From the IMG/VR virus record IMGVR_UViG_3300017963_000095, positions 1-46,605 of that record: a stretch of DNA of 46,605 nucleotides. The stretch is one strand, 5' to 3'. The DNA comes from a virus. Positions 1-18,979 of this stretch are shown here, one piece after another. Position numbers and translations under genes: made by a program. How positions within the stretch are numbered: position 1 is the stretch's first letter; every line of letters starts with the position of its first letter. The notes below the pieces were generated by a model. It was not told the DNA's origin. It searched no databases and worked only from the letters and a program-made list of their open reading frames with translations.

Positions 1-123
1 CCTCGACCACTTGAAGTGATCCGGTTACAGTGATGTTGCCTTGTAGCTGAACGTAGCGATCCCCGCTAGCGTAGTTGCTGAAGACGTAGAAAGTGCCGGT
101 GAGTACGCACGGATCCCAGTAGA
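1..123. repeat. Left copy of terminal direct repeat
   Basis: These 123 bases are identical to 46483-46605. The repeat lies inside a tail-fibre reading frame that stays open across the joined ends, so the contig is best read as a circle of about 46,482 bp. A genuine packaging repeat would normally lie between genes, so an assembly overlap of a circular or circularly permuted genome is the simpler reading. Confidence 0.95.
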
Positions 124-1489
124 AGGTTCCGTTAACGCTCTGGCTGATGTAGAAAGGTGAGCCACCGCTCGTACTGATCGTGGCGGTGGCATCGGGAACG
201 AAGTTGCCCCCGGTAGCATCGATTGCCATCCAGAAGGCTCCCCCGCCAGAGAGGGCGAAGGTCGAGTTTGCGCCCAGCGTCACCGTGCCGTAAGTGTTGG
301 ATGTGGTAAGTGCCACATAGCTAAGAGTCGCAGAAGCAGCTAGTGTCAAGTGATGAAATTTGGTTCCAACCCCTGCAGCGTTTGTCCACGTACAAGTACC
401 GGCAAAAACGAAAGTAGAGGTTTCTCTCAAGAGCGCATCATGCTTCTCGACGGAAGCGGCACAAGTGGTAAGTGTCCACGTCCCCGAACCGCACAGGCAG
501 TCGGACGCCGAAAGACCGGAGCGCCAGTAAGCGTTTCCGGTGATGTCCACGTCTTGGTCGTTGGCATCGAAAGTGCCAAGCACCTGATCAAACTCGCTCG
601 TGATGTCGAGTGCGTCCTGAAGTTGGAAGGTTCCGCCGCTTCCATTGATCTCGAGATCGTAGAGCGAGTTCCCGTTGGTGGTGATCGTCTTGGTGCCTGA
701 TGTGGCGTTGAGCTTCCACGTTGTGTTCGACGCAGCCACCGTGCCCGAAGCCAGCGTGAGGTTCCCGCCGATAGTCACGGCGAGATCATTCGCGTCGAAC
801 GTACCGGCGGCTACCTCGAAATCACCTAGCACCGTGAGCGCGTCCTGTAGCTCGAAGGTGCCGCCGCTACCGTTCACCTTGAAGCTCGAGAACGAGTAGC
901 TATTGGAGGTGATGGCAACCGTTCCACTCGTAGCGGTCATCTCCCAAAGCGTAGTCGATGCAGCCACCGTACCCGAAGCCAGTGTCAGATCCCCGCCTAT
1001 CGACACGTCGAAATCGTTGGGGTCAAACGTCCCGGCGATGGTTTGCAGATCACCACTCACGGTTAGGGCATCTTGCAACGTATAAGTACCACTACCGTTG
1101 TTGAAAACGGTGGAGTACAACATGTTCCCCGCTGTAGTTATGGCAACGGCCCCACCGTTAGTAAACAGGAAGATGATCCCTGTGCCGGTTGAAGCGAGAC
1201 CTCCTGACTGCAAGGTGAAGGTGTCGTTGTGAACTTCCAGTGTAGGGTTTCCACCGACAACTGTGGCTTTGAGCTGGTAGTTATACCCAGATTGAACTAG
1301 CGTTTTGCAGTGACGAGTGGCCCCAGAAAGCATTTCGCAATCTGAGGGACTGTTTGCGTCGAAGTGTACATTGGAGTCTGATGTGGGCACGCCAGCGCCA
1401 CCGGACCCGCCGCTAGACGATGCCCAGTTATTTGCGCTGTCCCAATCACCATCAGCGTCATCGTCTACCCAGTAGCGTTCGTTAGCCAC
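1..1489 (-). CDS. Tail fibre / beta-repeat adhesin, N-terminal part (continues at 46482)
   Basis: This is the 5' part of a 1642-residue fibre gene cut by the window ends. I chose a GTG start at 1487-1489, reading MANERYWVDDDADGDWDSAN. A GGAG ribosome site lies about 8 bases upstream, at the end of the adaptor gene. The frame is open from here to base 1 and then in phase with 46482-43043. After an N-terminal region there are three tandem repeats of about 70 residues, each containing GGTF(E/Q)LQDAL and later a GTFDANDxxV-type strand. Such Gly/Thr/Ser/Asn-rich short strands are typical of beta-solenoid phage fibres. It follows the short adaptor gene, which probably anchors it to the tail. The role, host surface recognition, is inferred from position and repeat type; no receptor-binding domain or enzyme motif was recognised. 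Confidence 0.8.
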   Translation of the reverse strand, partial: MANERYWVDDDADGDWDSANNWASSSGGSGGAGVPTSDSNVHFDANSPSDCEMLSGATRHCKTLVQSGYNYQLKATVVGGNPTLEVHNDTFTLQSGGLASTGTGIIFLFTNGGAVAITTAGNMLYSTVFNNGSGTYTLQDALTVSGDLQTIAGTFDPNDFDVSIGGDLTLASGTVAASTTLWEMTATSGTVAITSNSYSFSSFKVNGSGGTFELQDALTVLGDFEVAAGTFDANDLAVTIGGNLTLASGTVAASNTTWKLNATSGTKTITTNGNSLYDLEINGSGGTFQLQDALDITSEFDQVLGTFDANDQDVDITGNAYWRSGLSASDCLCGSGTWTLTTCAASVEKHDALLRETSTFVFAGTCTWTNAAGVGTKFHHLTLAASATLSYVALTTSNTYGTVTLGANSTFALSGGGAFWMAIDATGGNFVPDATATISTSGGSPFYISQSVNGTFYWDPCVLTGTFYVFSNYASGDRYVQLQGNITVTGSLQVVE

Positions 1490-1493
1490 AGTA

Positions 1494-2060
1494 CTACTCC
1501 TTGCCCAGGTGGAACCACGAGATGAGCAGAGACATCGCCGCCGCGTTTTCCTCGTGCGCGGCAGCGTTCTCCTCGGAGGCAGCAGCCGCATCGGCAGCAG
1601 CCTCTGCGTTCGCCACTGCATTGAGGAGATCATCCCTCAGGTCATCGGGATCCTCGCCAGATGAGACCGTGACCTTGACACAGCGGTCGAGCTGCTCCTG
1701 TAGCTGCTGCATCATCATCACGTCATAATCGAGCTGCGTTTCGGCAGTGTCAGGGTAGAAGCCTCCCTGGTTGTGGAAGTCGGTCTCCTGCAGGAGATCC
1801 AACTCACGCAGGACAGTGAGCTTCTCCCCGATGGCCAGCGGCGAACCGGAGATCGGGTAGGTGACGTTGCCACCCGCTTCCTCGCCCACACCGCTCACCG
1901 TGTAGTCTGTGTTCAGCACCAAGGTAGTCTCCACCCCATCGGAGTCGGTGTGGATCACGGTGAGATGATCCTCATCGTAGATCTTGAAGTTGTAGGGGAA
2001 GACAGTGGTGACATCGTTCCCGTCGTAGCTTACCTTCTGGTTCTCGCTGGAGACCGTCAT
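1494..2060 (-). CDS. Tail-fibre N-terminal adaptor protein
   Basis: A 188-residue protein starting MTVSSENQKVSYDGNDVTTV, followed by FPYNFKIYDEDHL. This opening (a strand, then a F-x-(F/Y)-x-F-type turn, then a DYTVSG strand) is typical of the phage tail-fibre attachment domain. The C-terminal third (about residues 145-178) is an alanine/glutamate-rich coiled-coil stretch, as in fibre stalks. Fibre function seems split between this short anchor and the long repeat protein that follows at 1489. The TAG stop is five bases before the fibre GTG, and the fibre ribosome site sits in this gene's last codons. Attachment to the tail hub is inferred from family resemblance. Confidence 0.75.
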   Translation of the reverse strand: MTVSSENQKVSYDGNDVTTVFPYNFKIYDEDHLTVIHTDSDGVETTLVLNTDYTVSGVGEEAGGNVTYPISGSPLAIGEKLTVLRELDLLQETDFHNQGGFYPDTAETQLDYDVMMMQQLQEQLDRCVKVTVSSGEDPDDLRDDLLNAVANAEAAADAAAASEENAAAHEENAAAMSLLISWFHLGKE

Positions 2061-2062
2061 GG

Positions 2063-5000
2063 CTATTTCTCCTTGACCTTTTTGTACAGACGCCTCGCAT
2101 CCGAAATCGGGTTAGAGAAGGGGACACCTGTGAACCATTCCAGGGTTCTCCAAGTCTCGAAAGCCCCCTCCCCGATCTTCCCTGACCTGAACTTCTTCAC
2201 CGCTCTAGCCGCCCGCGTGACACCCTGCGTGATCGGCAGCTCCGCTGGCCCGTACTCGAACGTCCTAGCGACTAGGTTGAGACCGGGGACACCGCCCAGG
2301 AGATCTGTACCCGGCTGAAACAGGAACTCCCACCACTTCGGTCTCTCGTCCTCGTTGTAGAAGATGAAAGCCGGAATGAGCATAGCCATCGCCGGGAGGA
2401 TCCGCTCGTTGATAATGTAGCTGCCGAGCGACTTTGCGCTGATCTGGCCGCGCTTGATCCCGGCTACCCTGTGCATGAAGCGGTTGAAGTCGACGCTCTT
2501 GAACGACATGAACTGGGTGAGCAGGCGCACCGCACCTTCGTCTGCCTGCACGGCGCTCTGGTCCGTAGGCATGCCGGATGGCTGAGTGGTCCGCACGATC
2601 CTTCGTGCGTAGCGCACCGCAGCCTCCATGGCTTCCTCTGGGGTGGTGGCTTCCTTCACACCCTCCAGGCCCAGCTCGAGCGCCTGCTTGTACGCACCCA
2701 GCCACACGGAATAGGTGGTCACTGCATCGACTGCGCGGATCCCCAGGAAGGCAATCTCCTGGCACCACTGCCGCGTGCGCTTGATCTTGTTGAGGAAGCC
2801 GCCGCGAGCGAAGTCGATGTTCCTCGTGAAGTCGCGCATCTCCCGCGTGATGCTTCGGCTCCTCGCCTTCATGAACGGATCCACGGAGTGGATGAACTCG
2901 ATGATCTTGCCCGGTGACTTGCCCATGTCTTTATCACCGGTCAGCAGCGTGGATGCTCCGTAGGCGATGTACTTGTAGCCCGAGAGGTTCTGCGCCGAAT
3001 CGTTCATCGCCTGGACTGCGTTCGCTGCCGAGAGCGCCTGCTTTCCAGACGTGAGAACGCGCAGGCCCAGCGCCGAGACCGTGTGCAACGCACGCAACTG
3101 CTCGACCGCCCGGTTCATCGGCCCCTGGAGTTTGCGCTCAGGCCGCGCCGTGCGGTTCAGCCATCCCCGCAGCGCCTTGTACTGAGGGAGACCGAACTTG
3201 GCCACGAAGGCTTCGTAGAAGTCCTTGTTCGTGGTCAGGCGCTGGAGATCGTAGAGCAGCTCCGTGTGGGTGATCTGGCGCACAGTCTTTGTGAACCTGT
3301 CGACCAGCACGCCCAGCGAGAGATCCGGCGGTCTGGTGGACAGACTCTCCCCGGTGCGCTCGTCGCGCACGCGAGCCTTGGAAGCCGTAGCGTCTGGCCG
3401 AGCCGAAGTGTACGTGGCCCGGTTGTAGAGATCGGCCAGGATATTGGACCGCTCGTTCCAGCGCCCAGCGTCTGGGTCCAGATCGGAATCGTAACGCAGC
3501 GGGTAGTAGCCGCCGCGCATGAGGATCTGCTCGCCCTCTGCTGACGTGGCCACGAAGGGCTGCGGCTCTTCCTTGGGAGGCCGCTTGAATGTGACAGCCT
3601 CAGAGACCCGAGCGAGATCGCTGTACACATCAATGGAATCCCACACGTCCTGCACGGCGCGAAGCGCATCGGCGGGAAGCACGGACACCAGGGAGTCGAG
3701 CTGCTCATCGCTGAACTGGTAGACACTCTTCTGCAGCGGACCACGGTTTGCATCGTTGCCCATGTTGAGGACAACGCAGAGGATCCTCTCGAACGTCCAC
3801 GCTTCCCAGCCTTTGATCTCGCGCAGAGCCGGTGGGATCGGAACTCCCGGTACATCGAAGAACTGACCTCTCTTCGCGTGAACCTGTTCCGCTGCTTTGG
3901 CGAGGCGCACGAAAGCCTGCTGGAGGCCGGGGATCCCCTCGCCGCCCTCCATATGCTTGGCCAGCATGTTGTCGTAGTTGGCATCGGCCAGGGAGATCAG
4001 ATCGTAGATCAGGCCAGCAGGCCCGGTCTTCTCTCCCTTGAGCGACACGTAGCCGTCCATCGCATCGAACAGGAACTCCATGCGCGTCATGTACGCGGCG
4101 AACTGAGCGGTCAGGCCATCGGCCTTGCCGAGCGTGGTGCCGCTGTCGCGAGTGCCCTGCTTGAAGTTGGGGAGCTTCTCGAGGCGGCTATTGATCTTGG
4201 TGACCAGCTCAGCTACACGCTCAACACCGAGCGCCTTGAGCGCATTCAGGTACTGGCCTCCCTCGTGGAGCAGCATCTGAATCGTGGCATTCAAGTCGTC
4301 GATCTGCTCGAAGGTGAGATCCTTCATGTTCATGTAGCCCACCGGAACCTGTTTCTCCTTCACCCAGGTGGGCACCGTGTCGTTGAGATCCACCAGTAGC
4401 CCGCGCAGATCTGCGTCCTCTCCCTCCTTCAACCCTATAGAGGGAAGCTCAAGTGGCTGGGCCTGGACAACAGCTCGCCATGTGGCCAGCGCCTCACCCC
4501 TGGTGGAGAAGACGCCGAGCCGGGTCTCACCGTCGTAGACTGCGTGAAGCGTGGAACCGTCCTCCTGCTTTTCCTGTTTGGTGCTGACAGTGCCTCGCTC
4601 CGGTACGGTGGTGTCGTTCACCCGGTACGCGAAGGCGAGATCCCGCACGGCGCGGGCATAATCCGGCTGCGTGTTCTTGAGCCGACCGTTCAGCGTCTTC
4701 CCGGCCAGCTTGCGGCGGATGCTCTCGTAGTGCTCGCGCAGCTTCACGGACTCGAGGATCAAGGCGTGGAACTTGAGCTGCCGCCTGCGGGCCTCGAGCG
4801 CAGCCTTGGCATCTCCGCGCCGAGCTGCGGCGATGGCCTTGCGAGCGTACTCCGCTTCCCGCGCAGCCCACTTCCTGAACTGCATGGCTTCGCGAGCGTT
4901 GACCGTCTTGCGGAGATCCTCACGAGCCTGATCACGCAGCGCCTTCATCTTCGCCCTGCGCAGCGCCTGGGGCTCCCTCGCCTTCTCCTGCCCGCGAGCG

Positions 5001-8000
5001 AGCGCCTCGAGCCGGTTGATGTCCCTCTGGATGAGATCGAAGGTGGCCTCGCTGTGCGTGGTCTCCACGCCAGTCTCGACCGCTGCTTTGATGTTGCGGA
5101 TATGCCGCGCCTCGATCTGGTTGGCTCTGTCCTCGATAGCCTGATCCCGGTTCACGGCATCCTTCATCGCGAGCACCATCTGGTGCGGATCCTCGAAGCC
5201 GTACTTATCGGCCAGGGTCTCGAGCTGGGATCTCCTGTCCACGTCAGTTGACCAGTTGAGGAAAGCGTCGAACTGCGGCGAAGGCTGCTGCGCCTGCTCC
5301 GCGACGATCCCCTGACCATGCTTCCCACGCAACTCTGCGATCAACTGGCCCAGCTCAGCCCCGGTGAAGAAAGACGCCAGATCGTCAGGGTTGATGCCTC
5401 CCTGTTCCTGTGCGTCCTTGAGCGCCTGATACGTGGGCAGCGCATCGATCTCATCGACTGCCTGCGACACGATCCCGATCCGCCCGCCGGTCTGATCCCG
5501 CCACTCCTTCACCCTGGTCTGCACGGCTTCGCGGACCCGGCGCTCCTTCTCGTCCTCGGCCTTCTTTCTGGCCTTCTCGATCTTCGCATCCTTCTCGTTG
5601 AGCAGGATGTCGCTGGCCGCTTCATACGTGCGGTAGTAGGCTTCGGCCACCTCGGCTTCCTGCTCCGTTGCGAGCCACGCGCCGAAGATCTGTCGCATCT
5701 CGGGAGCCACGCCTTCCCGCCCACCGAGCTTCGTGGAGATGTCCTTGTAGATGTCGAGCATCCAGTTTTTGAACCGGGTGAAGGAGTCGGTCAGCTCGAC
5801 TGCGGGAGCCTTCCCTTCCATGAAGTAGGCTTCCCACTCGTTGATGATCTTCTCGATCCCTTCGACGTTGAACTGTCCACCCGCGAACCGCTGCAGTTCC
5901 TCGTACTCCGCAAGGAGCGCCTCGTCTGCGGTTCCGCTCTCGACCGCTTCCTGCAGGAACTTCAGAGCGATGTGGCCCAGCTCGTGAACCGGAGTACTGG
6001 TGTCCCAATTCCCCTGGAAGAGCCTGACGTGGATGTCCTGGCCAGTGAACGTGACGGCTCCCCGGCGCTGCTGCTGGAAGGTCTCTGCCCGCTCTCGAGT
6101 CTCTGCAGCAGTTAGACGTTTTACTTGTACTGCCGCTGGAATACTCCCGATCTTCGTTGGGGTGACTTCGTACTCAACACCCAGTACGGCTTGAACCTCT
6201 TCTGCAAGAGACTGGTTAGTGAACCCCTTCTGATATCTGCGCCGATCCGTGTTAGGCTGAATGATGAAGCCGCCGGGATCACCCGCTACAGCAGTCTTGT
6301 TCTTTGCCTTGGCTACCCCTCGACCTCGAGTACCGATCAGAGCAGTGCCGCCAACCCGCAGCACGTTTCCGATGTTCTCGATGACTACCTGTCGCTCTGC
6401 GGGCGGCAACACGTTCAGGACGTTCAAGGAGACTACTGCACCGTACTTCTTCTTAGGAACGTCCGTGTAGTCAGGCTCGTAGTCTGCTCCAGGGAACGGC
6501 TCAAACGCTTCTGCCTGCGGACCTAGCTCCTTAGTGCCAACACCCTTCCCAGCACCGAAGTCCAATACCGTACCCTCGGACAGCCCCAACGTCTTGAGCT
6601 TCTCTCCTGCAGCCCGATACGTGCCAACGGTAGTAGTGATCTGGGTGAAAGCCGTATTCTCAGGTGGCACGTCTACTGTCTCGAAGCTAACTGAAGTATC
6701 AACCTCTCCAACAGGAGCAACTGCCTGCCCAAAAGTCTCAGCCTCTATCACCCGCGTGCGCTTCGCCACCTCGCTAGCCACCGCTGGCGTCTTCTCGAGT
6801 GTAGCCTGGGGAAGCTCGCTGAGCGAGGCGCTCATGTGGCAAGAACTGGTGCAGTTGTTGCAAGCGTCCTTGTCCGCACCCGCAGCGCAACAGAGCGAGC
6901 CTGGATTTGAATCGAGTGTGCCTGCCAGCGTCTGGAAGATCTTCTGCGCATCTGGCTGCGCCTTGATGTACTCTTCCACCCTCTGGTACGCGGCTCGCAC
7001 TTTCGTGGGCACGTCCTTGGCTCGAGTCTCTACCAGCTCCATCATCCGGCGCTGGATCTCGGTGGCTTCCTTAAAGCGTCCCTCGCGCCTCGCCCGCTGA
7101 AGCTTTTCACTCAGATCGAAAGCCTTGTCCTCCTCTGGTGGCGTGCGCTCCTGCGCGAAGACGTGCCACTCGCCCTCCTCATCCTGCACCACTGCGATAC
7201 GAGCAGTGAAGTTCCCGATCTCCCCCTCACCCAATACCCGACTTACAGTATCGGAATACATGCCTGGGCGAATGGCTGCGTGCATCCACGTCTGCAACAT
7301 CTCAGGATGCTCGCGGGCGTACTGCACAATCTCTTCCGCAGTGCCCACCACTATGCGCGGCAACACGCGGATCTGCGGGTAGTCTTTCAGAATCTGCTCG
7401 TACTTCTCGACGGAGTATCCGTACTTCCGGTAGAGTTTCCCGTCGATCACCTTGGCTTCGCGCCCCTGCTGCGCGTAGAGATCGATGATCGCCTGCTGGA
7501 TTGCGGTGTTGTCGCTCTCTCCTTCAAGCGCACGGCTGAGCTGCAGATTTGAAGCGAAGGAATCGGCCAGCTCATCTTCCTGTATCGGGATCCAGTACGG
7601 ATCGAGCGAAGGCTGCACGAGAACGTGCTCGATGCTGATGCCCTCGTTACTGATCTGGGCCAGCATCCTGAAAGTGGCATCCTGCTTCGTGATGATCTTG
7701 AGCTTCAGCCCACGCATGTCAGCGTGGCGCACCACATCGCGAAGCTGCCCGTACTGCCGATCCGTGAGATCGCCCTGACCGTTCACCCGCAATCCGCCGA
7801 CACTGTTCAAGAGATCGATGCTCTCCTGTGAAAGCTGCAGAATCTCCCCGGTGTACGCGGCTCGCGAATAGAAGGAGATCGTGTTGCCGCCCATTCCCAT
7901 GCCGGTCACGTAGCAGCCATCGAAGTAGCAGCCGTGCGAGCCGATCATGAACATCGGACAGGCTGAGTTCAGATTCAGGGCGGCACCGGTCTTCTCCGCT

Positions 8001-11000
8001 CTCTTGAGCGAGAGCGCCACTCCCTTGTCGGTCTTGGCCACGTTGGAGATGGGCTGATCCACGAACTTGATCGGTGCTTCCATCTCGGTGTTCGCGAGAT
8101 ACGCGGCCTCGACTGCGATGGTCACCTCTTCACGGAAAGCCTCGAAGACCGCATCGGGGAGATAGTCCATGAAGGTCTGCGCGAACGAGCGCCGGAATCC
8201 CCCGAACTGCGGTTTGTAAGGATCGACCTCGCCCTCAGGACCGAGCTTCTTCATCCGGCGCTCGATCCCCAGCGTGACGATCCCCTGATCGTTGATCAGC
8301 GTAGTGCTGCCGAACATCTCGTTGACATCGGCCTGGATCTGCTCGATCTCCGCACGAAGCGCCTTATCCTTGGCCAGCACCTTGTTGATCTGGAAAGCAC
8401 TGGGCCTGCCGTGGCCTCCAGTGATTGGACCGATGGCGTTGATCGTCGCACCCAACTCAGCGATCTTCGCCTCGAGTTGGGTCTTCTGCTCTTCCGTAGT
8501 GTCTTCGGCCTTGAGTTGCTTGTTGAGTTCAGCCCGCTCCGCAGCCGCCCGCTCTCGAACTGCTACCATCCTGCGCAGCAGCGCATCGGAGACTCGTGCG
8601 TTGGGCTTCTCACCAGCCAACTCCAGCGCCTTGTCGAGCTGCGCTTTCGACTGAGGGTCTGTCTTTAACCGGTAACGCAGTTCCTCGGCAGTGGTGATCT
8701 GCGCACCGACCGCAGCCTGTAGCCGCCGGTCGAAATCAGCCAGACGATCCAACGTGGCAATCACCTGTTCCGACTGCTCACTGAGACCCGTTGTTTCCCG
8801 AGCGAACTCGAAGACCTGATTCGTGAGTTGGAAAAGCGTCTTTGGCTTGCCCTGAGGATCCACCTCGCTGGCCTGCTCGAAGTTCGGGTCAGCATCGATG
8901 GTGAAGCGCACCCGCTCAGCCAGTGCCTCTGCCGTAGTTCCCTTGATCCTCGCTCCGCGTTTCAACACCCGATCCAGAAGCTCGACATAGTCACGAGCGT
9001 AGCTGGCGGGCATACCGGTCTCCTCGAACTGCCGCTGATACGCGAGTCGCTGCTCAGCGGACATGCCCTTCGGACTGGTGGTCATCATGTCGCGGAAGAT
9101 CAGCGCACGGTCAGTGGCAACGTCGATCTCGAACTGCATGGCCTGAACTTGCTCAGCCACGGTCATGCCGTCAGCGCCGAAACGAAGATGGTTGAAGAGA
9201 TCCGTTCCTATCTGGGTTGGGGCTATCGTCGCCCATGCACCAATCGTGAAACGGATCTCTTCGTTCTCGGCTAGTGCTTGGTTGAAGGTCTGCTCGTCCA
9301 GGCCGAGCGCCTGCAGCGTCTGCTTTTGAATAGCCTCAGGCACCAACTGCATGAAGGTCTCAGCGTCGATGCCCACGTCCCTGATGACTTGGTTCGGGTT
9401 TGTACCCGCCACCATAGCGTCGATGGCCTGCTGCAGCTTCTCAGGATCGCGGACAGCGAGTGGTGTCTCTTCAAGTATCTTGGAAATCTCGCTCAACGCG
9501 GCTCGCTGCCGAGCGTTCATGGCTACCCGGCGCATCCCTGTAGCCACGGACCCGATACCCAGCAGCGCGGAGCTGGTGCCTACGAGCAGTCCTTCGTAGA
9601 GACCTTCCTTGAAGGAACCGAACATCTCGTTGAGGATCTGCTTGACTGTGAAGTCCTCTTTGGTGGCTCGCGCACCGAGCGTACCGGCGGTCGAGACCAT
9701 GTTCTGCAGGGTCTCCTGGCCGATGTTCTCGACCACGTCGACCACCACCTCACGGATGAGTGTGCCCAGCGCCTCCCTGGAAAGCCGCTCACGGATACCC
9801 AGGATGTTCCGCACGTTACCCAGCGTAGCTCGCTCGAGCAGCGTGTTGATCGCAGCCACCGGCACCGAAACACCCAGCGCAGCCCCGCTGCTGATACCCT
9901 CGTCCCGCAGATCCGCGTAAACGGAACCACCTTCTTGAATACCCACGAGACCCAGCGGGATCGCCGGGTTGATGGACCCCATGGCTACTTTGGAAAGCAA
10001 GTCTGCCGCGCTACCAGGGAGGTCCACAGCGAAGCGGTAGAAGCCGCCCACTTCATCAGTGAGCGCCGAAGCCGTATCTCTCGAACTGCGGATCTCCGCA
10101 GAAAGGATATCCTGCCTTCCGGCAAGATAGCGATCCATCTCCTGAGGGGTCATCTTGTCGAGCTTGCGCACTTCCTTTTGCGCATCGCTGTCACCCAACA
10201 GTGAGAGAAGGTAGACGTTCGCTACGTGAGACCACCGCTTATCAAAAGCCGCAGCCTCCTCCGGTGTGAAGTCTTCTCCCCGCTCGAACTCTGCAGTCTT
10301 GCGCTGCAGCCAAGTAGCGATGTCATCCGCCGCCTTGAGAAAGCCGAGCAAGCCTTTGCGCGGCCCCTCGAGCGCATTCTCAAAGCCGACTCCGATGTGC
10401 TCGCCCGCACCACCGTAGCGACTGACGAGCACGTTCTTCAGCGCCGTGAGCTGCCGTCCGCTATCCCAGGCAAGCGTCATGTTGTGCGGGTTCGCCGCCC
10501 ACTGGGCCAGCGCCTTGCTATCCTTCATCAGCTCGCGGAAATCTCTATAGAGGAAATCACGCTCTACGGCTGTGAAGTTGTCCCGCACGAAGTCCTCACC
10601 CAAACCCTCGGGAAGCAGGCGTGCGTAGAACTGGATCTTCGCTTCCTTGTCAGGCACCCGGCCTATCGTGACCTTCCACGCCTCGTCCGCGTCATCAAGC
10701 CAGTGCAGCGCCTGCTTGAACCCGAAGACGCCCGCTTGCCGAACAATGCTGGCGGTCTGCGCCGGGTCAGAGTTCAGGCGATGCCGAGTCTCAAGTTCGT
10801 TGAGCGTGATGTCGCTGACCGGTCTTCCTGGCCGGTCATAAGCAGCCCAACGGCTCTTGGGGACGTAGACACCGGGACCGATGATGCTGGTCTTCTGCGT
10901 GACCGCACGCGGCGATACTTGATTGAGGAAGGATCGCTGCTGAGCCACTTCACCCTGAAAGACCTCTTTGACCTCAGGGTCCAAACCACGAAACAGATCG

Positions 11001-11020
11001 TCAGGATTGAACTCAGGCAC
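2063..11020 (-). CDS. Giant internal virion protein (gp16-like position) with multiple enzyme-like domains
   Basis: A 2985-residue protein in the place of the T7 gp16 ejection protein. What I see: Gly/Ala-rich hydrophobic or amphipathic stretches near residues 345-400 and 475-505; a cysteine domain beginning at C1021-x9-C1031-x4-C1036, with a GGLRVNGQGDL strand near 1077 and a second cluster (CCAAGADKDACNNC) near 1376-1394, an arrangement like phage Gp88/radical-SAM-related proteins; a class I methyltransferase with motif I VLDFGAGKG near 1484-1492 and VVSLNVLNVLPP after it; a zincin motif VHELGHIALKF near 1677-1687 with a glutamate-rich INEWEAYF near 1720; long charged coiled coil near 1800-1850 and 2005-2105; and a C-terminal domain with a hydrophobic stretch near 2877-2895. 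Such chains match the polyvalent proteins of phages and conjugative elements. I infer ejection into the host and modification of host targets. No transglycosylase motif was seen. It follows the gp15-like gene directly, start and stop overlapping. Confidence 0.8.
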   Translation of the reverse strand: MPEFNPDDLFRGLDPEVKEVFQGEVAQQRSFLNQVSPRAVTQKTSIIGPGVYVPKSRWAAYDRPGRPVSDITLNELETRHRLNSDPAQTASIVRQAGVFGFKQALHWLDDADEAWKVTIGRVPDKEAKIQFYARLLPEGLGEDFVRDNFTAVERDFLYRDFRELMKDSKALAQWAANPHNMTLAWDSGRQLTALKNVLVSRYGGAGEHIGVGFENALEGPRKGLLGFLKAADDIATWLQRKTAEFERGEDFTPEEAAAFDKRWSHVANVYLLSLLGDSDAQKEVRKLDKMTPQEMDRYLAGRQDILSAEIRSSRDTASALTDEVGGFYRFAVDLPGSAADLLSKVAMGSINPAIPLGLVGIQEGGSVYADLRDEGISSGAALGVSVPVAAINTLLERATLGNVRNILGIRERLSREALGTLIREVVVDVVENIGQETLQNMVSTAGTLGARATKEDFTVKQILNEMFGSFKEGLYEGLLVGTSSALLGIGSVATGMRRVAMNARQRAALSEISKILEETPLAVRDPEKLQQAIDAMVAGTNPNQVIRDVGIDAETFMQLVPEAIQKQTLQALGLDEQTFNQALAENEEIRFTIGAWATIAPTQIGTDLFNHLRFGADGMTVAEQVQAMQFEIDVATDRALIFRDMMTTSPKGMSAEQRLAYQRQFEETGMPASYARDYVELLDRVLKRGARIKGTTAEALAERVRFTIDADPNFEQASEVDPQGKPKTLFQLTNQVFEFARETTGLSEQSEQVIATLDRLADFDRRLQAAVGAQITTAEELRYRLKTDPQSKAQLDKALELAGEKPNARVSDALLRRMVAVRERAAAERAELNKQLKAEDTTEEQKTQLEAKIAELGATINAIGPITGGHGRPSAFQINKVLAKDKALRAEIEQIQADVNEMFGSTTLINDQGIVTLGIERRMKKLGPEGEVDPYKPQFGGFRRSFAQTFMDYLPDAVFEAFREEVTIAVEAAYLANTEMEAPIKFVDQPISNVAKTDKGVALSLKRAEKTGAALNLNSACPMFMIGSHGCYFDGCYVTGMGMGGNTISFYSRAAYTGEILQLSQESIDLLNSVGGLRVNGQGDLTDRQYGQLRDVVRHADMRGLKLKIITKQDATFRMLAQISNEGISIEHVLVQPSLDPYWIPIQEDELADSFASNLQLSRALEGESDNTAIQQAIIDLYAQQGREAKVIDGKLYRKYGYSVEKYEQILKDYPQIRVLPRIVVGTAEEIVQYAREHPEMLQTWMHAAIRPGMYSDTVSRVLGEGEIGNFTARIAVVQDEEGEWHVFAQERTPPEEDKAFDLSEKLQRARREGRFKEATEIQRRMMELVETRAKDVPTKVRAAYQRVEEYIKAQPDAQKIFQTLAGTLDSNPGSLCCAAGADKDACNNCTSSCHMSASLSELPQATLEKTPAVASEVAKRTRVIEAETFGQAVAPVGEVDTSVSFETVDVPPENTAFTQITTTVGTYRAAGEKLKTLGLSEGTVLDFGAGKGVGTKELGPQAEAFEPFPGADYEPDYTDVPKKKYGAVVSLNVLNVLPPAERQVVIENIGNVLRVGGTALIGTRGRGVAKAKNKTAVAGDPGGFIIQPNTDRRRYQKGFTNQSLAEEVQAVLGVEYEVTPTKIGSIPAAVQVKRLTAAETRERAETFQQQRRGAVTFTGQDIHVRLFQGNWDTSTPVHELGHIALKFLQEAVESGTADEALLAEYEELQRFAGGQFNVEGIEKIINEWEAYFMEGKAPAVELTDSFTRFKNWMLDIYKDISTKLGGREGVAPEMRQIFGAWLATEQEAEVAEAYYRTYEAASDILLNEKDAKIEKARKKAEDEKERRVREAVQTRVKEWRDQTGGRIGIVSQAVDEIDALPTYQALKDAQEQGGINPDDLASFFTGAELGQLIAELRGKHGQGIVAEQAQQPSPQFDAFLNWSTDVDRRSQLETLADKYGFEDPHQMVLAMKDAVNRDQAIEDRANQIEARHIRNIKAAVETGVETTHSEATFDLIQRDINRLEALARGQEKAREPQALRRAKMKALRDQAREDLRKTVNAREAMQFRKWAAREAEYARKAIAAARRGDAKAALEARRRQLKFHALILESVKLREHYESIRRKLAGKTLNGRLKNTQPDYARAVRDLAFAYRVNDTTVPERGTVSTKQEKQEDGSTLHAVYDGETRLGVFSTRGEALATWRAVVQAQPLELPSIGLKEGEDADLRGLLVDLNDTVPTWVKEKQVPVGYMNMKDLTFEQIDDLNATIQMLLHEGGQYLNALKALGVERVAELVTKINSRLEKLPNFKQGTRDSGTTLGKADGLTAQFAAYMTRMEFLFDAMDGYVSLKGEKTGPAGLIYDLISLADANYDNMLAKHMEGGEGIPGLQQAFVRLAKAAEQVHAKRGQFFDVPGVPIPPALREIKGWEAWTFERILCVVLNMGNDANRGPLQKSVYQFSDEQLDSLVSVLPADALRAVQDVWDSIDVYSDLARVSEAVTFKRPPKEEPQPFVATSAEGEQILMRGGYYPLRYDSDLDPDAGRWNERSNILADLYNRATYTSARPDATASKARVRDERTGESLSTRPPDLSLGVLVDRFTKTVRQITHTELLYDLQRLTTNKDFYEAFVAKFGLPQYKALRGWLNRTARPERKLQGPMNRAVEQLRALHTVSALGLRVLTSGKQALSAANAVQAMNDSAQNLSGYKYIAYGASTLLTGDKDMGKSPGKIIEFIHSVDPFMKARSRSITREMRDFTRNIDFARGGFLNKIKRTRQWCQEIAFLGIRAVDAVTTYSVWLGAYKQALELGLEGVKEATTPEEAMEAAVRYARRIVRTTQPSGMPTDQSAVQADEGAVRLLTQFMSFKSVDFNRFMHRVAGIKRGQISAKSLGSYIINERILPAMAMLIPAFIFYNEDERPKWWEFLFQPGTDLLGGVPGLNLVARTFEYGPAELPITQGVTRAARAVKKFRSGKIGEGAFETWRTLEWFTGVPFSNPISDARRLYKKVKEK

Positions 11021-13131
11021 TATTCTTCCGCCTTACCAGACTGGACCGTGTAGTAATCGCCCAGGATCTGAGCGATGAACGGGTCACTCTGCGCGAGCGC
11101 AGAGACAGTGGTCTGTGCCTTTCTGACGCTGAGCGCATCCGCGAAAGCCTGCGCCTGGGTCCGCTGCTCGCCCAGTACTTCCGCTCTCGGAACATCTGGG
11201 TAGGTGTAAGCAGGAATGATCTCCACCACTTCGCCCTGGTTGCCGGTTCGCACGATGATCTCGCGCAGCTCACCGCCATCGTCCCGTTTGAAGGGCAGCG
11301 ACTCTCCCGCCCTGCGCAAGACGTTCTCGATGTCTTCTCGATCCTTGACCACGATGTTTCCATTCGGGTGGCGCGGAGCGTCCGCAGGAATCCCGGTGCG
11401 CTTCTCGAGCGCCTCCTTGGACTCATCGGTCTCCACGATGTTGCCAACCTCGCCGCCCAGCTCGCGAACCTTCCGCGCCTTCTCGAAGTTGAAGACCTCA
11501 GTATCCCCAAAGCCCAGCCACCCGTCATCGAGATCGAACTTGCGGTAAGCGTCGAAGAGCACGTTGTTCACGTACTTCTGACGCTCCTCGGGATCGGTCA
11601 TCTTCGAGAGTCGGTCTGCGTCCTGCTTGAACCGCTGCTCGATGAAAGACTCCATGTCGTAGAGTTTCTCATTCTGCAGCATGGCTGCGGCTACCACCTC
11701 TTCCTGCGAAACGTCCGCGCCGGTCCTGACCGGATATACTTGACGGATAGCCGAACGCAGCGCCTTACGCACGTCCCGCATCGTACGGTCCTGCGGGCTG
11801 TCAGTCTCACCGTTGACGATCTTGTTCTGAAGATTGACCAGCTTCTCCCAATCCGCCATGCTGAGCAGTGGCTGAATCGGGTAGAGGTCTACCTTCTTGA
11901 ATCCCGCCGGGTTCACATCGGCCATCGTCCGCAGACGTGCGTACTGCGCCTTCCTGAATGCTTCAGCCTGTCCCTTCTGCGCACGTCCGATAGCAGCTCT
12001 CCAGTTCTTGACCAGCTCCGCTTCCTTCTCCTGGGAGATGTCCGCTTTGGCTATCGCCGCAGCCAGATCCCCATAACCGGGGAAGGATCGCTCCGTGATC
12101 TTGGTGTTCAGCTCGTTGTTGACGAGGTTGATCTGCTCCTCATCGTGGAGCTTCTTCACCTGTTCACGCTGCTGGATGGCTCGTATCAGTTCCTGGCGAG
12201 CGATGTCCCTGACCTCCCTGGTCATCTTCACACCCGCCAGTGTGAACTCACCACCCTTGCCGCCCTGGTCAACCAGACCCAGGCGCTCGCTGTCCGTGAG
12301 ATCCGGCTTAGCCATCAGCATGTCGACCACGGACTGGGCGTCGACTGCCATGCGGACCAACCTGATCTTCTCGGTGAGCGCCTCCCGCGAAGCGGCGTCC
12401 ATCTGATCACCGAACCGCTGCATGTGTTGCTCAGCCGCTACGAGACCTCGAGCGTCCTCTGGTGTCACCTCTTGCAGAAGCGAGGCCACACGGATGCGAC
12501 TGTACCGTGACTTCTCGGCCAGCTCCGCTGCCGCTACCGCATCGGGATCCGTGATGCCCTGCTCGCGCAACGCAGCAGTGAGGTTCAGCATCCTGTTGTT
12601 GGTGGACTCGAGGAAGGTCTCAGTGCTGAAGGGATCCGCCTTGACTGCGTCCACGCTCAGCGTGTCCTCTGCCGCTCTGGTGGTCTGCTTGGCCCGCTCC
12701 GCTTCTGCGATGCGATGGCGGCGGATCTGGTCGACATAGTCAGGAATCGTGGACGCAGCGGTGATGTCGAACAGCTCGCGCTGCTGCGGCGTCTTCAACG
12801 CACCGGAGATCTCCTTCTGCATGCGCTGCAGATCCGCACGGAAGTCATCGTCCGCCCCGGCAGCGTCCGTCCCCCGGCGCTGCTGGTACTCCGCTCGTTT
12901 GGCGTTAGCCTCATCCTTGAACCTGTTCAGCGCCTCGCGAGCCGCGTTCTTGTCTTCCTTCACCTTCTGCGCCTGCTCATAAGCCAGCAGTTGCTGCCCG
13001 GTCTTGAAGACGGTCTGGCCGAGCTGACCCAGTGTTCTGGCCTGGGCCGCGCCGAAGGACTCAGGCGTGGCCTGCGGCATGCGCAGGCGGGCGAGGTTGA
13101 CCTGACTCTGGTAGGTTGGAATCTTCGCCAT
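11020..13131 (-). CDS. Internal virion protein, gp15-like
   Basis: A 703-residue, mostly helical, charged protein (MAKIPTYQSQVNLARLRMPQ) with long Ala/Glu/Arg/Gln stretches in the first 300 residues and no membrane segment. Size, position between the gp14-like and gp16-like genes, and the N-terminal AxxLGxLGQTVFKTGQQL pattern fit the T7 gp15 class, the middle component of the ejectosome that forms a periplasmic tunnel. The last codon overlaps the start of the giant downstream gene, suggesting coupled production of the two core proteins. Function is from family and position; sequence identity to T7 itself is probably low. Confidence 0.75.
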   Translation of the reverse strand: MAKIPTYQSQVNLARLRMPQATPESFGAAQARTLGQLGQTVFKTGQQLLAYEQAQKVKEDKNAAREALNRFKDEANAKRAEYQQRRGTDAAGADDDFRADLQRMQKEISGALKTPQQRELFDITAASTIPDYVDQIRRHRIAEAERAKQTTRAAEDTLSVDAVKADPFSTETFLESTNNRMLNLTAALREQGITDPDAVAAAELAEKSRYSRIRVASLLQEVTPEDARGLVAAEQHMQRFGDQMDAASREALTEKIRLVRMAVDAQSVVDMLMAKPDLTDSERLGLVDQGGKGGEFTLAGVKMTREVRDIARQELIRAIQQREQVKKLHDEEQINLVNNELNTKITERSFPGYGDLAAAIAKADISQEKEAELVKNWRAAIGRAQKGQAEAFRKAQYARLRTMADVNPAGFKKVDLYPIQPLLSMADWEKLVNLQNKIVNGETDSPQDRTMRDVRKALRSAIRQVYPVRTGADVSQEEVVAAAMLQNEKLYDMESFIEQRFKQDADRLSKMTDPEERQKYVNNVLFDAYRKFDLDDGWLGFGDTEVFNFEKARKVRELGGEVGNIVETDESKEALEKRTGIPADAPRHPNGNIVVKDREDIENVLRRAGESLPFKRDDGGELREIIVRTGNQGEVVEIIPAYTYPDVPRAEVLGEQRTQAQAFADALSVRKAQTTVSALAQSDPFIAQILGDYYTVQSGKAEE

Positions 13132-13141
13132 CGCCGCACCC

Positions 13142-13582
13142 CTATCTGAGGAACTGGCTCGCCAGTGAACTGGTCCCCGCGAGCAGCGTCGACGCTACGG
13201 GAAGAAGCGGACTCTGCCGCTGCGCTCGCAGCAGCCGAGCCTGTGACTTGAACCCGTACTGCTCGAGAGCGAGATTGTAGCGGATGTCCAGGGCATCCTG
13301 TTCGATGCCCACCTCCGTTTGCTCGTTCACGATCTCTGGCGTGCCGGTGCCCAGCTCCACACCAGAAGCGGCGAAACCTACTCGCTGCTGGCCAATCAGC
13401 CGTCTGCCTCGGCGGCGAAGCTCAGCCTCTTCCCGGCTTGCCCGCACCTGGGCCTGCCGCGCCTGCATCTCGGCTGCTCGAGCGTTGTACTCCGCAGCAG
13501 CGTTCTGCGCCTGCACCTGACGGTACGTGGAGACCGCCGCAAGTCCGGTGCCGATGCCGCCCAGAATCAATCCTGCACACAT
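13142..13582 (-). CDS. Internal virion protein, gp14-like
   Basis: A 146-residue protein beginning MCAGLILGGIGTGLAAVSTY, a hydrophobic Gly/Ala segment, followed by a long helix rich in Ala, Gln, Arg and Glu (AAEYNARAAEMQARQAQVR). It then has the GQQRVGFAASGVELGTGTP stretch seen in the T7 gp14-type virion core family. In T7 this protein is ejected first and forms the outer-membrane end of the DNA channel. It sits between the gp13-like and gp15-like genes, in the canonical order. The ATG is two bases from the preceding stop. Confidence is high for the family, moderate for the exact role. Confidence 0.8.
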   Translation of the reverse strand: MCAGLILGGIGTGLAAVSTYRQVQAQNAAAEYNARAAEMQARQAQVRASREEAELRRRGRRLIGQQRVGFAASGVELGTGTPEIVNEQTEVGIEQDALDIRYNLALEQYGFKSQARLLRAQRQSPLLPVASTLLAGTSSLASQFLR

Positions 13583-13583
13583 C

Positions 13584-14048
13584 TCAGCGCCTCCTCAACC
13601 AGAAAGGATGGAACATCTCTCCACCCAATCCGAACGGTATGGGGTTGCTGATGTGGAACCCCACCCACTCGAGCCACCTGATCGAAGCTTCGTTGCGCAC
13701 GTCCACGAAGTTGAAGAGCGAATCGAAGCCTTCCATCATCGGCCCAAACACGTACTCCTTGGTATTGCGCAGCACGAAGCGCCAGATCTCACTGATCCGC
13801 TCGCTGGCCAGCAGCCAGGGGCAACCCTGCCCGCGCACATGCGGGTAGTCAGACACACCAAAGACCGCTACGGGATCTCCGTCCGCGAGGATCGCCCAGG
13901 ACCGCACTGCATGCTCGAATGACATCTGCAAAGCCGTCCTACCATCCAGGCCCAGTGCCGCTCTGACTTCCTGCTCGTCGCACTTCCGCAGCTCCCCTAT
14001 TGCATCAATGGCTTCCTGAGAAGCCCGCACGATCAACCCTTCAGCCAT
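13584..14048 (-). CDS. T7 gp13-like protein (GNAT-like fold)
   Basis: A 154-residue protein (MAEGLIVRASQEAIDAIGEL). It has a central AILADGDPVAVFGVSDY pair of strands and a C-terminal NEASIRWLEWVGFHI followed by MFHPFWL, the pattern of the phage gp13/DUF2833 group, which looks like an acetyltransferase (GNAT) fold. In T7, gp13 is needed for virion assembly and is not known to acetylate. The gene overlaps the end of the nozzle gene by eight bases and precedes the gp14-like gene, so it belongs to the tail/core assembly block. An enzymatic role cannot be judged from sequence. Confidence 0.75.
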   Translation of the reverse strand: MAEGLIVRASQEAIDAIGELRKCDEQEVRAALGLDGRTALQMSFEHAVRSWAILADGDPVAVFGVSDYPHVRGQGCPWLLASERISEIWRFVLRNTKEYVFGPMMEGFDSLFNFVDVRNEASIRWLEWVGFHISNPIPFGLGGEMFHPFWLRRR

Positions 14049-16683
14049 CTCCGAAGTCCACCCTTGGGATCACAGACAGAACCGTTGTTGGTACTGGCTG
14101 ATCGTTCCTCAGGTAGAGTTTGCCGGTGGTGCCGTCCGAAGGGTCAACCAACACGGCCTTATCCCCGGTGAAGAGCGCCGTGGGATCGCCGTAAAGCTCA
14201 TCGTCGCGGAAAGCGATCTCATCAAGGTGATCGGCATCCGGCCCGACTTTGATGCCCCGCGTATTCTCCAGGCGAAGCGTGATCTCTACCGGACTCCGCA
14301 GCCGGTCTTGTAGAGTGCCGCTCTCAGCAGAGATCTCAATCTCCAAAGTCTCGAGGTTACAAGTGTAACCCAACCCCACGAAGGCGCGGATCGCCGGGTG
14401 CGCGAAGGCAACCGCTCCGCTAGAAACCGTGTCCTCAGTCTGCACATTACCGTCGAGCACGATCTGCACGGTCAAACCTTCGAGGTGCTCGAGACCCGGC
14501 ATCGACGTGATCATCCTACCCCAGTCATGCAGAGCGGTGGCTCGCATTGACACTGGCACTACTCGGTCGTAAGGCGTAACAGTCAGGACCGTGCCGCTCG
14601 TGAATGCGGTAACCTCGACTACTACACTGTCATCACCGAGCTTCAGCTTGAAGTACTTCCCGACATCACTGCTGTCGAAGAGGTAGGACTCGCTCGAGGT
14701 AAGCGTGAGCGACTCACCCACGGTCCAGTTCGTGCCGCCGGTCAACGTGAGCGAGTAACTTCGATCCGTCAGTAATCCATTGTAGTGGACACCACCGTCA
14801 ACGGCCCAAGCACGATCCACCTCGTCGTTGACGAGTCGATCCTTGAAAAGCTCGATGTACTTCTTCTCAGTTCCACCCACGGTTCTGGTAACCACAACGT
14901 AGGTATGGACCTCCCCGGCAGCGTTGAAGATTGAGCATACATTCTCGAAGTCTCCATCAGTAGTGTGACGGTGCCATCCCCACACCTGATGTTCCCGCGC
15001 ATAAGTCAAACCGAGCAGCACACCATCGTCCCGCACAACCCACAGCACGGTGTCTGGATGTTGCTGGTACGCTATATCTGCCAGCGTGTAACCTTTGAAC
15101 AAGTGCTGAGCCATGAGCGTGAGATCGTTGCCCTGGTAGCCGTTCACATTGAGGTCGTAAGCCAGATCTCGCACCACGCGCAGCGAAGCATCGATGAAGA
15201 TGACTGCGTTGCCGATCACCACCGGTCGTATGGTGGCGCAGCCCCACTGCGACTGCATCCGCAAGTTAACGCTAGTGGGTGTCACCGCATCACTGTCCCC
15301 ACCGGGACTCATCCGCCATTCGCCGCCGCCGGTTCCTATGAGCAGATCATCCAACGGCACCAGCCACCGAACATCGTGAAGCTGACGAGCCGCAAGCGTG
15401 AACTCGAACGCATCATCCGCCTGCAGTGGCGTGGAGATATCGAAGTTCCGGTAGAAACCGGTCTTTGAACCCCACAACGTCTGCGGGAGGTTGTTAGTCC
15501 GAGCGTAGATCAGGCGCTGCTCGAAGAACGTGGCCACGCCAGGGTAATCGTCCGCACCATTGAAAGGCGTCTGTGCTTCCGGCGGCTGTTTCGAGTAGTC
15601 AGGTGTCTTCGCGTTATCGATCTTGTACGAAGACAGCCCGCCCGCAGCCATGACCCGGTCCACCCAGCCCCAACTCCCAGAGAGGTTCTTCCTCATGTAG
15701 ATGTTGTAGTAGTGGGGCTGCGAAGCCGGTGGCGTCCAAGTGAGCGTGCCGCTTGACGCTAAGTACGAAGCCGTAGGCAGCGACTCTTCTCCATCGACTG
15801 AAGTTATCTTCCAGTCGTGATCCGAGCCACTGCCGCCTGTAACATTCGTTGGCGGCAACACTGTCGCGCCGAAGACAACAGAAGCCACTGTCCAGTTGTT
15901 GTGAGCCGTGCGGCTCAGTTCTTTTGGCGGGTAGTCTGGGTGCTGCATGAAAAGCACATCGTAACTCTGCTCGTAAGTGAGCAGCGCCAGATCCTCCGCA
16001 GGCCAGGGAGTGGCCAGCTCGTAAGGACCGTAAGCGTACCCATCGAGCACCCAGTAGGTGGCCCAGTTAATGCCGATGAACGGCTCATCGTTCGCCGTGG
16101 ATGTGTGGTTCTGAATGCAGCGGTAGATACCTTTCGGGTAACCACCAACCATGGCGGTCTCCCAGTGATCGCTGCTCGAGTAAGGATCGTTCGCTGCTTC
16201 CGCAACATGGTTCTTTATGCAGCGGAACTGAAGCGCAATCCCGCCGCTCGAAGCAGTAACGTAGTCGCCTATCTCGAAGTACAAACCCTCTCGCCACGTA
16301 GTGGTCTGTATCGAATCCAGAGTTCCTACAACGAAGTCGCCAATGGTGTAGCCCGTACTGAGCGCCCAGTTGGCTATCCCGCTGACGTCCGCGAGCACGA
16401 GATTTCCATCCCGGTACACACGCATCGTCTGGTCACCGAACTCCAAGATGTAGCCCTGCTCCACCGAGAACTGAAAGGGGACCAGCTTCAGTGCCTTCGT
16501 GCTGTCCAGGGCTTCGGCCAGGAACTCGGTGCCTGGGCGCGAAGTCACCCCACCGAAAGGCTGCACGATAAAGTTCTCGCACAGCTTGAGCGCAGTGGGG
16601 TACTTGGCCAGATCAACACGAGCGGAGAGTGAAGGGGACCACTCTCCACCCGTGAACGATCTCTGTGGAACGCTGACAGCCAT
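14041..16683 (-). CDS. Tail nozzle / tail tubular protein B-like
   Basis: An 880-residue protein with the N-terminal block FTGGEWSPSLSARVDLAKYP, then NFIVQPFGGVTSRPGTEFL. This is the standard opening of the podovirus tail nozzle family in BPP-1-like and related phages (T7 gp12 role). The rest is beta-rich with aromatic repeats (e.g. WGWHRHTTDGDFENVCSIF and GRMITSMPGLEHLEGLTVQI, known in this family). It follows the tail tube gene after two bases and overlaps the gp13-like gene. It probably forms the distal tail nozzle, which fibres contact and DNA exits. Confidence 0.8.
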   Translation of the reverse strand: MAVSVPQRSFTGGEWSPSLSARVDLAKYPTALKLCENFIVQPFGGVTSRPGTEFLAEALDSTKALKLVPFQFSVEQGYILEFGDQTMRVYRDGNLVLADVSGIANWALSTGYTIGDFVVGTLDSIQTTTWREGLYFEIGDYVTASSGGIALQFRCIKNHVAEAANDPYSSSDHWETAMVGGYPKGIYRCIQNHTSTANDEPFIGINWATYWVLDGYAYGPYELATPWPAEDLALLTYEQSYDVLFMQHPDYPPKELSRTAHNNWTVASVVFGATVLPPTNVTGGSGSDHDWKITSVDGEESLPTASYLASSGTLTWTPPASQPHYYNIYMRKNLSGSWGWVDRVMAAGGLSSYKIDNAKTPDYSKQPPEAQTPFNGADDYPGVATFFEQRLIYARTNNLPQTLWGSKTGFYRNFDISTPLQADDAFEFTLAARQLHDVRWLVPLDDLLIGTGGGEWRMSPGGDSDAVTPTSVNLRMQSQWGCATIRPVVIGNAVIFIDASLRVVRDLAYDLNVNGYQGNDLTLMAQHLFKGYTLADIAYQQHPDTVLWVVRDDGVLLGLTYAREHQVWGWHRHTTDGDFENVCSIFNAAGEVHTYVVVTRTVGGTEKKYIELFKDRLVNDEVDRAWAVDGGVHYNGLLTDRSYSLTLTGGTNWTVGESLTLTSSESYLFDSSDVGKYFKLKLGDDSVVVEVTAFTSGTVLTVTPYDRVVPVSMRATALHDWGRMITSMPGLEHLEGLTVQIVLDGNVQTEDTVSSGAVAFAHPAIRAFVGLGYTCNLETLEIEISAESGTLQDRLRSPVEITLRLENTRGIKVGPDADHLDEIAFRDDELYGDPTALFTGDKAVLVDPSDGTTGKLYLRNDQPVPTTVLSVIPRVDFGDG

Positions 16684-16685
16684 GG

Positions 16686-17342
16686 CTACTTCCTCGCAGT
16701 CACGTAGCCGCTGACACCGCTGGGCGGCTCGAAGCCTTCGTTAGCGTTGACTTGCTGAGCGTACCCGAGCTTCCTCACGTACATGGCCAGCATCTGCTGC
16801 TGCAGCGAAGCCTTCCCCTTGAGCGGTATGGCCAGATCCGCCGCGAGCCTCCAACTGAGAGCGTCGATGAAAGCGGACGAGAACATGTTCGGGTCAGTGA
16901 TGCGGGCGGTGTAGATCAGTTCCGCGTCTTCCTGATCGGTCAGGATCAGCCGTGTATCCTTGGTGGAGTTGGTCCCGATCTCGAACTTGATCCTGTCGGC
17001 TTTGATCTTCACCGCCGACTCGACCAGTTGATAGGCCACGTACTCCCCATCGGTGTAGGTCTGGTTGGTCAGCGGGTTGTAGATCTGCAGCGCAGTCAGG
17101 CAGTCCGTGGGGTAGGCGTATGCGTAATCCCAGCCGGTCACCTCTTCCCCGCTCAGTGCCGCCAGGGCTTCCTGCTTGCGAGCGAAGTTCCAGGGAAACT
17201 CCGAGAGCACCGTGTCCCGCACGGTCTCGTACAGGCGATTGCACTCACGCGCAGGCCGGGTGTTCTCCGTTATCGCCGCGATGGACGGAGCACCGATGCG
17301 CGAAAGCGCGAGGTTACAAATGTTGATTACGCTGACAGCCAT
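16686..17342 (-). CDS. Tail tubular protein A-like (adaptor/tail tube, gp11-like)
   Basis: I chose the ATG at 17342 (MAVSVINICNLALSRIGAPS), giving 218 residues, because GAGGAG lies just upstream; an in-frame start further up has no such site. The opening NICNLALSRIGA and the later VLSEFPWNFARKQEALA are the hallmark of T7 gp11-type tail adaptor proteins. The C-terminal half has DAELIYTARITDPNMFSSAF and DALSWRLAADLAIPL, also typical. It forms the dodecameric ring joining the portal to the nozzle (known for the family). It lies directly upstream of the nozzle gene. Confidence 0.85.
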   Translation of the reverse strand: MAVSVINICNLALSRIGAPSIAAITENTRPARECNRLYETVRDTVLSEFPWNFARKQEALAALSGEEVTGWDYAYAYPTDCLTALQIYNPLTNQTYTDGEYVAYQLVESAVKIKADRIKFEIGTNSTKDTRLILTDQEDAELIYTARITDPNMFSSAFIDALSWRLAADLAIPLKGKASLQQQMLAMYVRKLGYAQQVNANEGFEPPSGVSGYVTARK

Positions 17343-17346
17343 GGCT

Positions 17347-17550
17347 CTACTCCTCGGAAGCGGCGGCTTCCATGAAGCTGCTAACGATCTTATTCGCTTC
17401 CGCAAGATCCTTAGCTACGTGCTCTTCACTCTGCCAGTCAGGGTAGAGCACGCCTTCTGCGCTCTGGCTCTCTACCCGTTTCTCGGTGCGAACGATGAAA
17501 CCGTTGGTGGCCTCCTCGATCCGCACGTTGCGGCTCTTCACCTTTGCCAC
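17347..17550 (-). CDS. Small conserved-type virion-operon protein, unknown
   Basis: A 67-residue charged protein. I chose the GTG at 17550 (MAKVKSRNVRIEEATNGFIV) because AGGAGG lies seven bases upstream; the longer frame starts inside the lipoprotein gene without such a site. A short beta-type N-terminus is followed by an acidic helix (HVAKDLAEANKIVSSFMEA). No membrane segment and no motif I can assign. It lies between the lysis-like genes and the tail tube gene. Confidence 0.6.
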   Translation of the reverse strand: MAKVKSRNVRIEEATNGFIVRTEKRVESQSAEGVLYPDWQSEEHVAKDLAEANKIVSSFMEAAASEE

Positions 17551-17551
17551 G

Positions 17552-18199: not shown

Positions 18200-18213
18200 C
18201 TCCTCCCCGCTGT

Positions 18214-18243: not shown

Positions 18244-18254
18244 TGCGAGGTCAG

Positions 18255-18539: not shown

Positions 18540-18544
18540 GGTGT

Positions 18545-18952: not shown

Positions 18953-18979
18953 GGATCTGTTCTCCTTCTCTTCTCGCGC

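Follow-up and report, generated by a model that had tools for sequence, protein, structure and literature searches.

What role does a single polypeptide of 2985 residues play in a podovirus, when its gene lies among those for the virion and its sequence contains several enzyme-type domains? We addressed this question by analysis of the window, by which we mean the whole 46,605-nt stretch of viral DNA at its full length. The window represents a complete podovirus genome that closes into a circle: bases 1–123 are repeated at the end, which leaves 46,482 bp. The giant open reading frame is uninterrupted on the minus strand from 11020 down to 2063, and its GTG start codon overlaps the stop codon of the gene before it (..GGCGGAAGAATAGTGCC..). 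Two points about the protein are new: it contains a cysteine module whose family is very rare (we found five members), and its methyltransferase is a swappable cassette that is often encoded beside portal or capsid genes.

Position of the giant gene and its C-terminal chassis

Genes of the minus strand are arranged in the order portal, capsid, tail tube A, tail tube B, two internal virion proteins, gp15-slot gene, giant gene, and fibre anchor. The portal and capsid genes match Head-tail_con (E 2e-162) and GP7 (E 1e-143), respectively, the two internal virion proteins correspond to phrog_308 and phrog_418/T7_gp14, and the gp15-slot gene to phrog_10475 ('endolysin'). Because of this operon order the giant gene is assigned to the gp16 slot, in agreement with the original prediction. 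The same synteny recurs in the related record L007 and, in part, in L092 and phage AF, and the window portal is approximately 40% identical to portals of Vibrio, Cobetia, and epsilon15-like podoviruses. The T7 gp16 internal virion protein is encoded at the equivalent position, after gp15, but the window protein differs from it in carrying enzyme domains and is more than twice its length. No match to gp16 families was obtained in Pfam and PHROGs at E values up to 1, nor did the whole protein match an entry in the PDB.

Table 1. Features of the giant protein and their positions in the window.
Feature	Position	Strand	Basis
Giant gp16-slot polyvalent-type protein, 2985 aa	2063..11020	-	Open frame; GTG start coupled to upstream stop; synteny; phrog_9880 E 1e-109
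LPD22 (large polyvalent protein associated domain), aa ~121-197	10430..10660	-	Pfam, marginal score
Region leading into the cysteine module, aa 726-1000	8021..8845	-	Conserved in L007 (41% identity)
Cysteine module, aa ~1005-1400	6821..8008	-	Cysteines conserved; 62.5% identical to L007
Putative class I SAM-dependent methyltransferase domain, aa ~1450-1640	6101..6673	-	Pfam Methyltransf_23 E 8.8e-5; invariant residues across 49 sequences
Zincin-like metallopeptidase, aa ~1646-1800: H1679-E-L-G-H, downstream EWEAYFMEGKAP	5621..6082	-	Motif and context conserved in relatives; 40% identity to L007
Charged, helix-forming stretch, aa ~1981-2100	4718..5080	-	Composition
C-terminal phrog_9880 chassis, aa 2215-2852; then hydrophobic segment, aa 2869-2887	2465..4378	-	phrog_9880 E 1e-109

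The C-terminal part of the protein consists of the phrog_9880 chassis, which is common to phage AF gp16, BPP-1 Bbp10, and others. Matches to phrog_9880 were obtained for the window, L007, and L092 proteins and for gp16 of Pseudomonas phage AF, a full-length member of 2213 aa; BPP-1 Bbp10 matches the C-terminal part, and C-terminal regions like that of the window are present in Vibrio, Xanthomonas, Caulobacter, and Bordetella phages. AF gp16 shares its slot, its zincin, and its C-terminal chassis with the window protein, but differs in having an LPD23 domain and a second HExxH motif, and no match to the cysteine module or methyltransferase of the window was found in it. Toward the N-terminus, LPD22 scored 26.9 bits by Pfam hmmscan and 32.2 bits in a six-frame search, the cut-off being 28.6. 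The coiled coils and hydrophobic segments originally thought to flank the enzyme domains found weak support: the former are represented by two stretches rich in E, K, R, Q, and A (aa ~781-840 and ~1981-2100, as judged by composition), and the latter by a single segment, residues 2869-2887, with a mean hydropathy above 1.5 over 19 aa.

Further features were seen elsewhere in the window and in L092. The two end-cut reading frames of the window (1-1633 and 43043-46605, minus strand) form one repetitive beta-type protein of approximately 1640-1690 aa across the contig join; this protein directly follows the T7-gp17-like fibre anchor (ORF 1494-2060) and is probably the fibre or spike body. Tail tube B of the window contains an insertion at aa 100-213, smaller than that of the L092 homologue (697-5916): there, one continuous frame encodes about 1740 aa, of which some 1000 are inserted past the first 100, and homology lies at 736-1020 and 4267-5907. 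The early region of the window encodes a free-standing SNF2-type helicase (35630-37057) near a DUF932 gene (34336-35058).

The cysteine module

The cysteine module contains, in order, C1021-x9-C1031-x4-C1036-Y, GGLR....GD (1075-1084), LKLK.ITKQ, and a C-terminal CC-x8-C-x2-C-x3-C (1377-1394). Its cysteines, at positions 1021, 1031, 1036, 1377, 1378, 1387, 1390, and 1394, account for eight of the ten in the protein, the others being found only at 2415 and 2753; the chance of finding eight of ten within 374 aa is p ~1.5e-4. All eight are conserved in the relatives, where the module holds 8 of 8 cysteines in L007 (2841 aa), 8 of 9 in L091 (5198 aa), and 9 of 11 in L092 (2880 aa). Between the window and L007, identity is 62.5% within the module and 25-41% over the rest of the protein. 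The module is thus the most conserved part of the giant protein.

We found five members of the cysteine-module family: the window protein, those of L007, L091, and L092, and a free-standing 231-aa protein of Moorella phage MTATph1. MTATph1 was the only one of the phages searched to contain the module, and scans of viral contigs with wider profiles added L091 and L092 only. None was found in genome-wide scans of bacterial contigs or in plasmids, and none of the Pfam and PHROG families searched gave a match. The spacing of the first motif is CX9CX4C in the window and CX8CX2C in L092 and MTATph1; in the compact members this motif reads C-x8-C-x-Y-C-Y and is followed by the GGLR....GD and LKLK.ITKQ strands and the C-terminal cysteine cluster. 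ART-PolyVal domains are found in the giant proteins of L007 and L091 (48.5 and 64.9 bits). The L091 reading frame (3593-19186), which in addition to its cysteine module and ART-PolyVal contains HExxH, GGDEF, and repeated uncharacterised blocks, is among the largest polyvalent-type proteins met in our analysis.

The module had been described in the original prediction as Gp88- or radical-SAM-like. The cysteine cluster itself was confirmed, and the order of motifs matches that in gp88 of mycobacteriophage D29 (GP88 family, PF17338), namely a cysteine motif ending in CY, a strand with ..GD, a strand with ..T(K/R), and a C-terminal cysteine cluster; HMM, hhalign, and Foldseek comparisons gave no proof of the relationship, which we regard as plausible. 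The Pfam models Radical_SAM, GP88 (PF17338), DUF5131, and DUF1848 did not match the module. The Radical_SAM HMM (PF04055) matched nothing in the records of the window, L007, L091, or L092, and its match in MTATph1 lies in a different gene from that of the cysteine-module protein. An hhalign comparison with the GP88 alignment gave an E value of 0.35 with the expected strands aligned, but is considered background because a methyltransferase control scored 0.54. Profile searches of the module against the PDB returned nothing meaningful. An AlphaFold model built from four sequences had a pLDDT of 53.7, rising to 70-88 in the core strands and helices, and predicted an alternation of strands and helices; Foldseek of this mediocre model against the PDB listed several barrel enzymes, none of them significant (best E 0.055). 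The compact L092 version did not fold in AlphaFold (pLDDT 35.7). The best BFVD match to the model of the module was A0A6J7VNV5_2 (probability 0.98, E 0.01), Radical_SAM appearing only at low rank. This entry covers 1313 aa of a larger protein from an uncultured phage and, going by the model, is perhaps a sixth member of the family.

We lean slightly toward the interpretation that the module forms an alpha/beta barrel resembling that of radical SAM or Gp88 proteins, in which an Fe-S cluster is bound, and has a second cluster at its C-terminus. The main rival is zinc binding, by a structural or nucleic-acid-binding domain that would not be an Fe-S enzyme, the protein still being a polyvalent ejection protein; we consider this a real but less probable alternative. 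It is consistent with the lack of a radical SAM or Gp88 HMM match and with an hhalign score no better than that of the control, the C-terminal CC-x8-C-x2-C-x3-C could bind Zn, and the window's first motif has a non-canonical spacing, unlike CX3CX2C. The compact members, however, place an aromatic residue before the last cysteine, in the manner of CX3C-x-(aromatic)-C, the two conserved strands, GGLR....GD and LKLK.ITKQ, look like those of an enzyme, and the predicted alternation of strands and helices also argues against a zinc domain, as does a best BFVD match that is another giant phage protein with Radical_SAM among the low-ranked entries.

The methyltransferase cassette and the zincin

The original prediction of a methyltransferase based on VLDFGAGKG was upheld by the Methyltransf_23 match and by residue conservation, both of which point to a class I enzyme. 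Landmarks of the domain are VLDFGAG at 1485, with motif I (DFGAGKG) at 1487-1493, the acidic residue E1507, NVLNV at 1533-1537, and YQKGF at 1596-1600. Residues D1487, G1489, G1491, G1493, and E1507 are invariant in 49 of 49 methyltransferase sequences, and in the same set DxGAGxG, E1507, NVLNV, and YQKGF are invariant or nearly so. The window's own match to Methyltransf_23 falls below the cut-off, and that of the relative L016 lies above it (30.3 vs 27 bits).

The methyltransferase family has at least 208 relatives in viral contigs. A recognisable portal, capsid, or packaging gene was present in the flank of 58 of the 80 loci kept, as determined with a handful of reference proteins as probes. 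Many of these loci are near-duplicates, so the fairer number is that for clusters at 80% identity, in which a portal or capsid gene lies beside the methyltransferase in at least 11 of 20. The methyltransferases of Roseobacter phage CRP-3 gp36, Mycobacterium phage Myrna gp97, and Microcystis phage MJing1 (WKV16972) show 41-45% identity, contain the same invariant motifs, and are encoded near portal or capsid genes, but their vehicles are unlike that of the window: CRP-3 joins the domain to a cell-wall hydrolase, Myrna has it fused within a protein that starts with a head-maturation protease, and in MJing1 it is a free-standing gene product beside the portal. In L049 it lies within a 3012-aa protein that also contains LPD38 and an ART-PolyVal match (23.3 bits, below the cut-off). 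In L007 the methyltransferase is missing and the cysteine module runs straight into the zincin, and for this reason we regard the methyltransferase as an exchangeable cassette, one that by sequence comparison recurs in very different structural-gene vehicles.

We also considered whether the methyltransferase and the cysteine module are obligate partners; this is ruled out by the three giant cysteine-module relatives without a methyltransferase. Myrna gp97, annotated as a tape measure, carries a head-maturation protease (phrog_18299, E 9e-18) to which the methyltransferase is joined, and has a relative in Bigswole gp102 (loci L002, 2687-6652, and L006, 2876-6511); the tape-measure annotation therefore looks wrong.

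The HELGH peptidase of the original prediction was confirmed at residue 1679 as a zincin motif, and conservation of its surroundings supports a putative metallopeptidase. At the motif level, HELGH with its EGKAP context is kept in three relatives (P0006, P0008, and P0009), and the HExxH ... EGKA context is that found in AF and in two cysteine-module relatives.

Proposed role of the giant protein

Polyvalent proteins of phages have been proposed to contain zincins and methylases, to be packaged in the virion, and to process themselves, the zincins cutting the polyvalent chain either inside the head or once it has been injected (Iyer et al. 2017, PMC5512222). The window protein shares with the phage-type members of this class its giant multi-domain chain, its zincin, its methyltransferase, and, at a marginal score, LPD22, and several unrelated effector or enzyme domains (methyltransferase, zincin motif, cysteine module) are combined in its one reading frame; ART-PolyVal, GGDEF, and zincin domains occur in the relatives of its cysteine module. 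It differs from the polyvalent proteins in its cysteine module, which is not described in the main text of PMC5512222, where the terms 'radical SAM', 'iron-sulfur', 'Fe-S', and 'cysteine' are absent, and its methyltransferase differs from the DarB-type DNA adenine methylase that accompanies SWI2/SNF2 and LPD36 in that class. The description that fits the giant protein best is that of a polyvalent protein as Iyer et al. (2017) define it, an interpretation that the chassis family, the mix of domains, and the domains of its relatives bear out as originally predicted. Polyvalent proteins with zincins and methylases are already known; the cysteine module would be a new domain of the class.

The chassis on which this polyvalent protein is built would be the phrog_9880 ejection-slot type of AF- and epsilon15-like podoviruses, and we think it probable that it is packaged, delivered, cut by its zincin, and acts through enzymes that modify their targets. 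What the analysis shows directly is the set of domains, how they come and go as modules between relatives, the conserved cysteines, and the gene context. Most likely, based on gene position and family, the protein is packaged in the head or bound inside it as an internal virion protein and is delivered with the DNA. The zincin, following the published proposal for this peptidase class, may then cut the chain into working units, either after delivery or during maturation. As infection begins, the freed methyltransferase and cysteine module could make chemical changes to molecules of the host or the phage, with blunted defence or metabolic takeover as the possible outcome; a counter-defence role for the enzymes would be a reasonable reading of the family. 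A more specific version, in which the phage injects a single chain that joins a radical-SAM-type Fe-S enzyme to a methyltransferase and a protease that processes itself, and so modifies host or phage nucleic acids or proteins at entry, seems to us doubtful. A folded Fe-S protein would not be expected to pass a podovirus tail intact, so that refolding and renewed assembly of its cluster inside the cell would be needed.

If the protein is packaged, it would add a cysteine/Fe-S-type enzyme to the domains that phages send in with their DNA, and it would define a methyltransferase that is widespread and turns up in structural-gene vehicles of very different kinds. With concrete, testable catalytic residues in one protein, it offers a way into the chemical modification carried out by phages in the first minutes of infection.

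Two other roles for the whole protein were weighed against delivery. It might be a lysis or cell-wall-penetration (transglycosylase-type) virion protein in which the enzyme domains are degenerate passengers, given that Caulobacter phage relatives are annotated 'lysis protein' and that BPP-1 Bbp10 and OANV1 gp16 are annotated as lysin with a beta/gamma-crystallin motif. We consider this very improbable: no cell-wall hydrolase model matches the window protein, the lysozyme-like gene is a separate one in the gp15 slot, and the catalytic-type residues of the methyltransferase and cysteine module are strongly conserved. The protein could alternatively be an unpackaged, late cytoplasmic polyprotein that functions in assembly or superinfection exclusion. 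The literature on virion proteomics of AF-like, BPP-1-like, and Myrna phages contains no statement on these proteins, the cysteine module of MTATph1 is free-standing and lies outside a recognised structural cluster, and the methyltransferase of MJing1 is likewise free-standing, all of which would fit such a role. Cytoplasmic action of this kind appears unlikely to us, since the slot between the gp15 position and the fibre gene is conserved in several phages, and the same methyltransferase is fused to a head protease in others.
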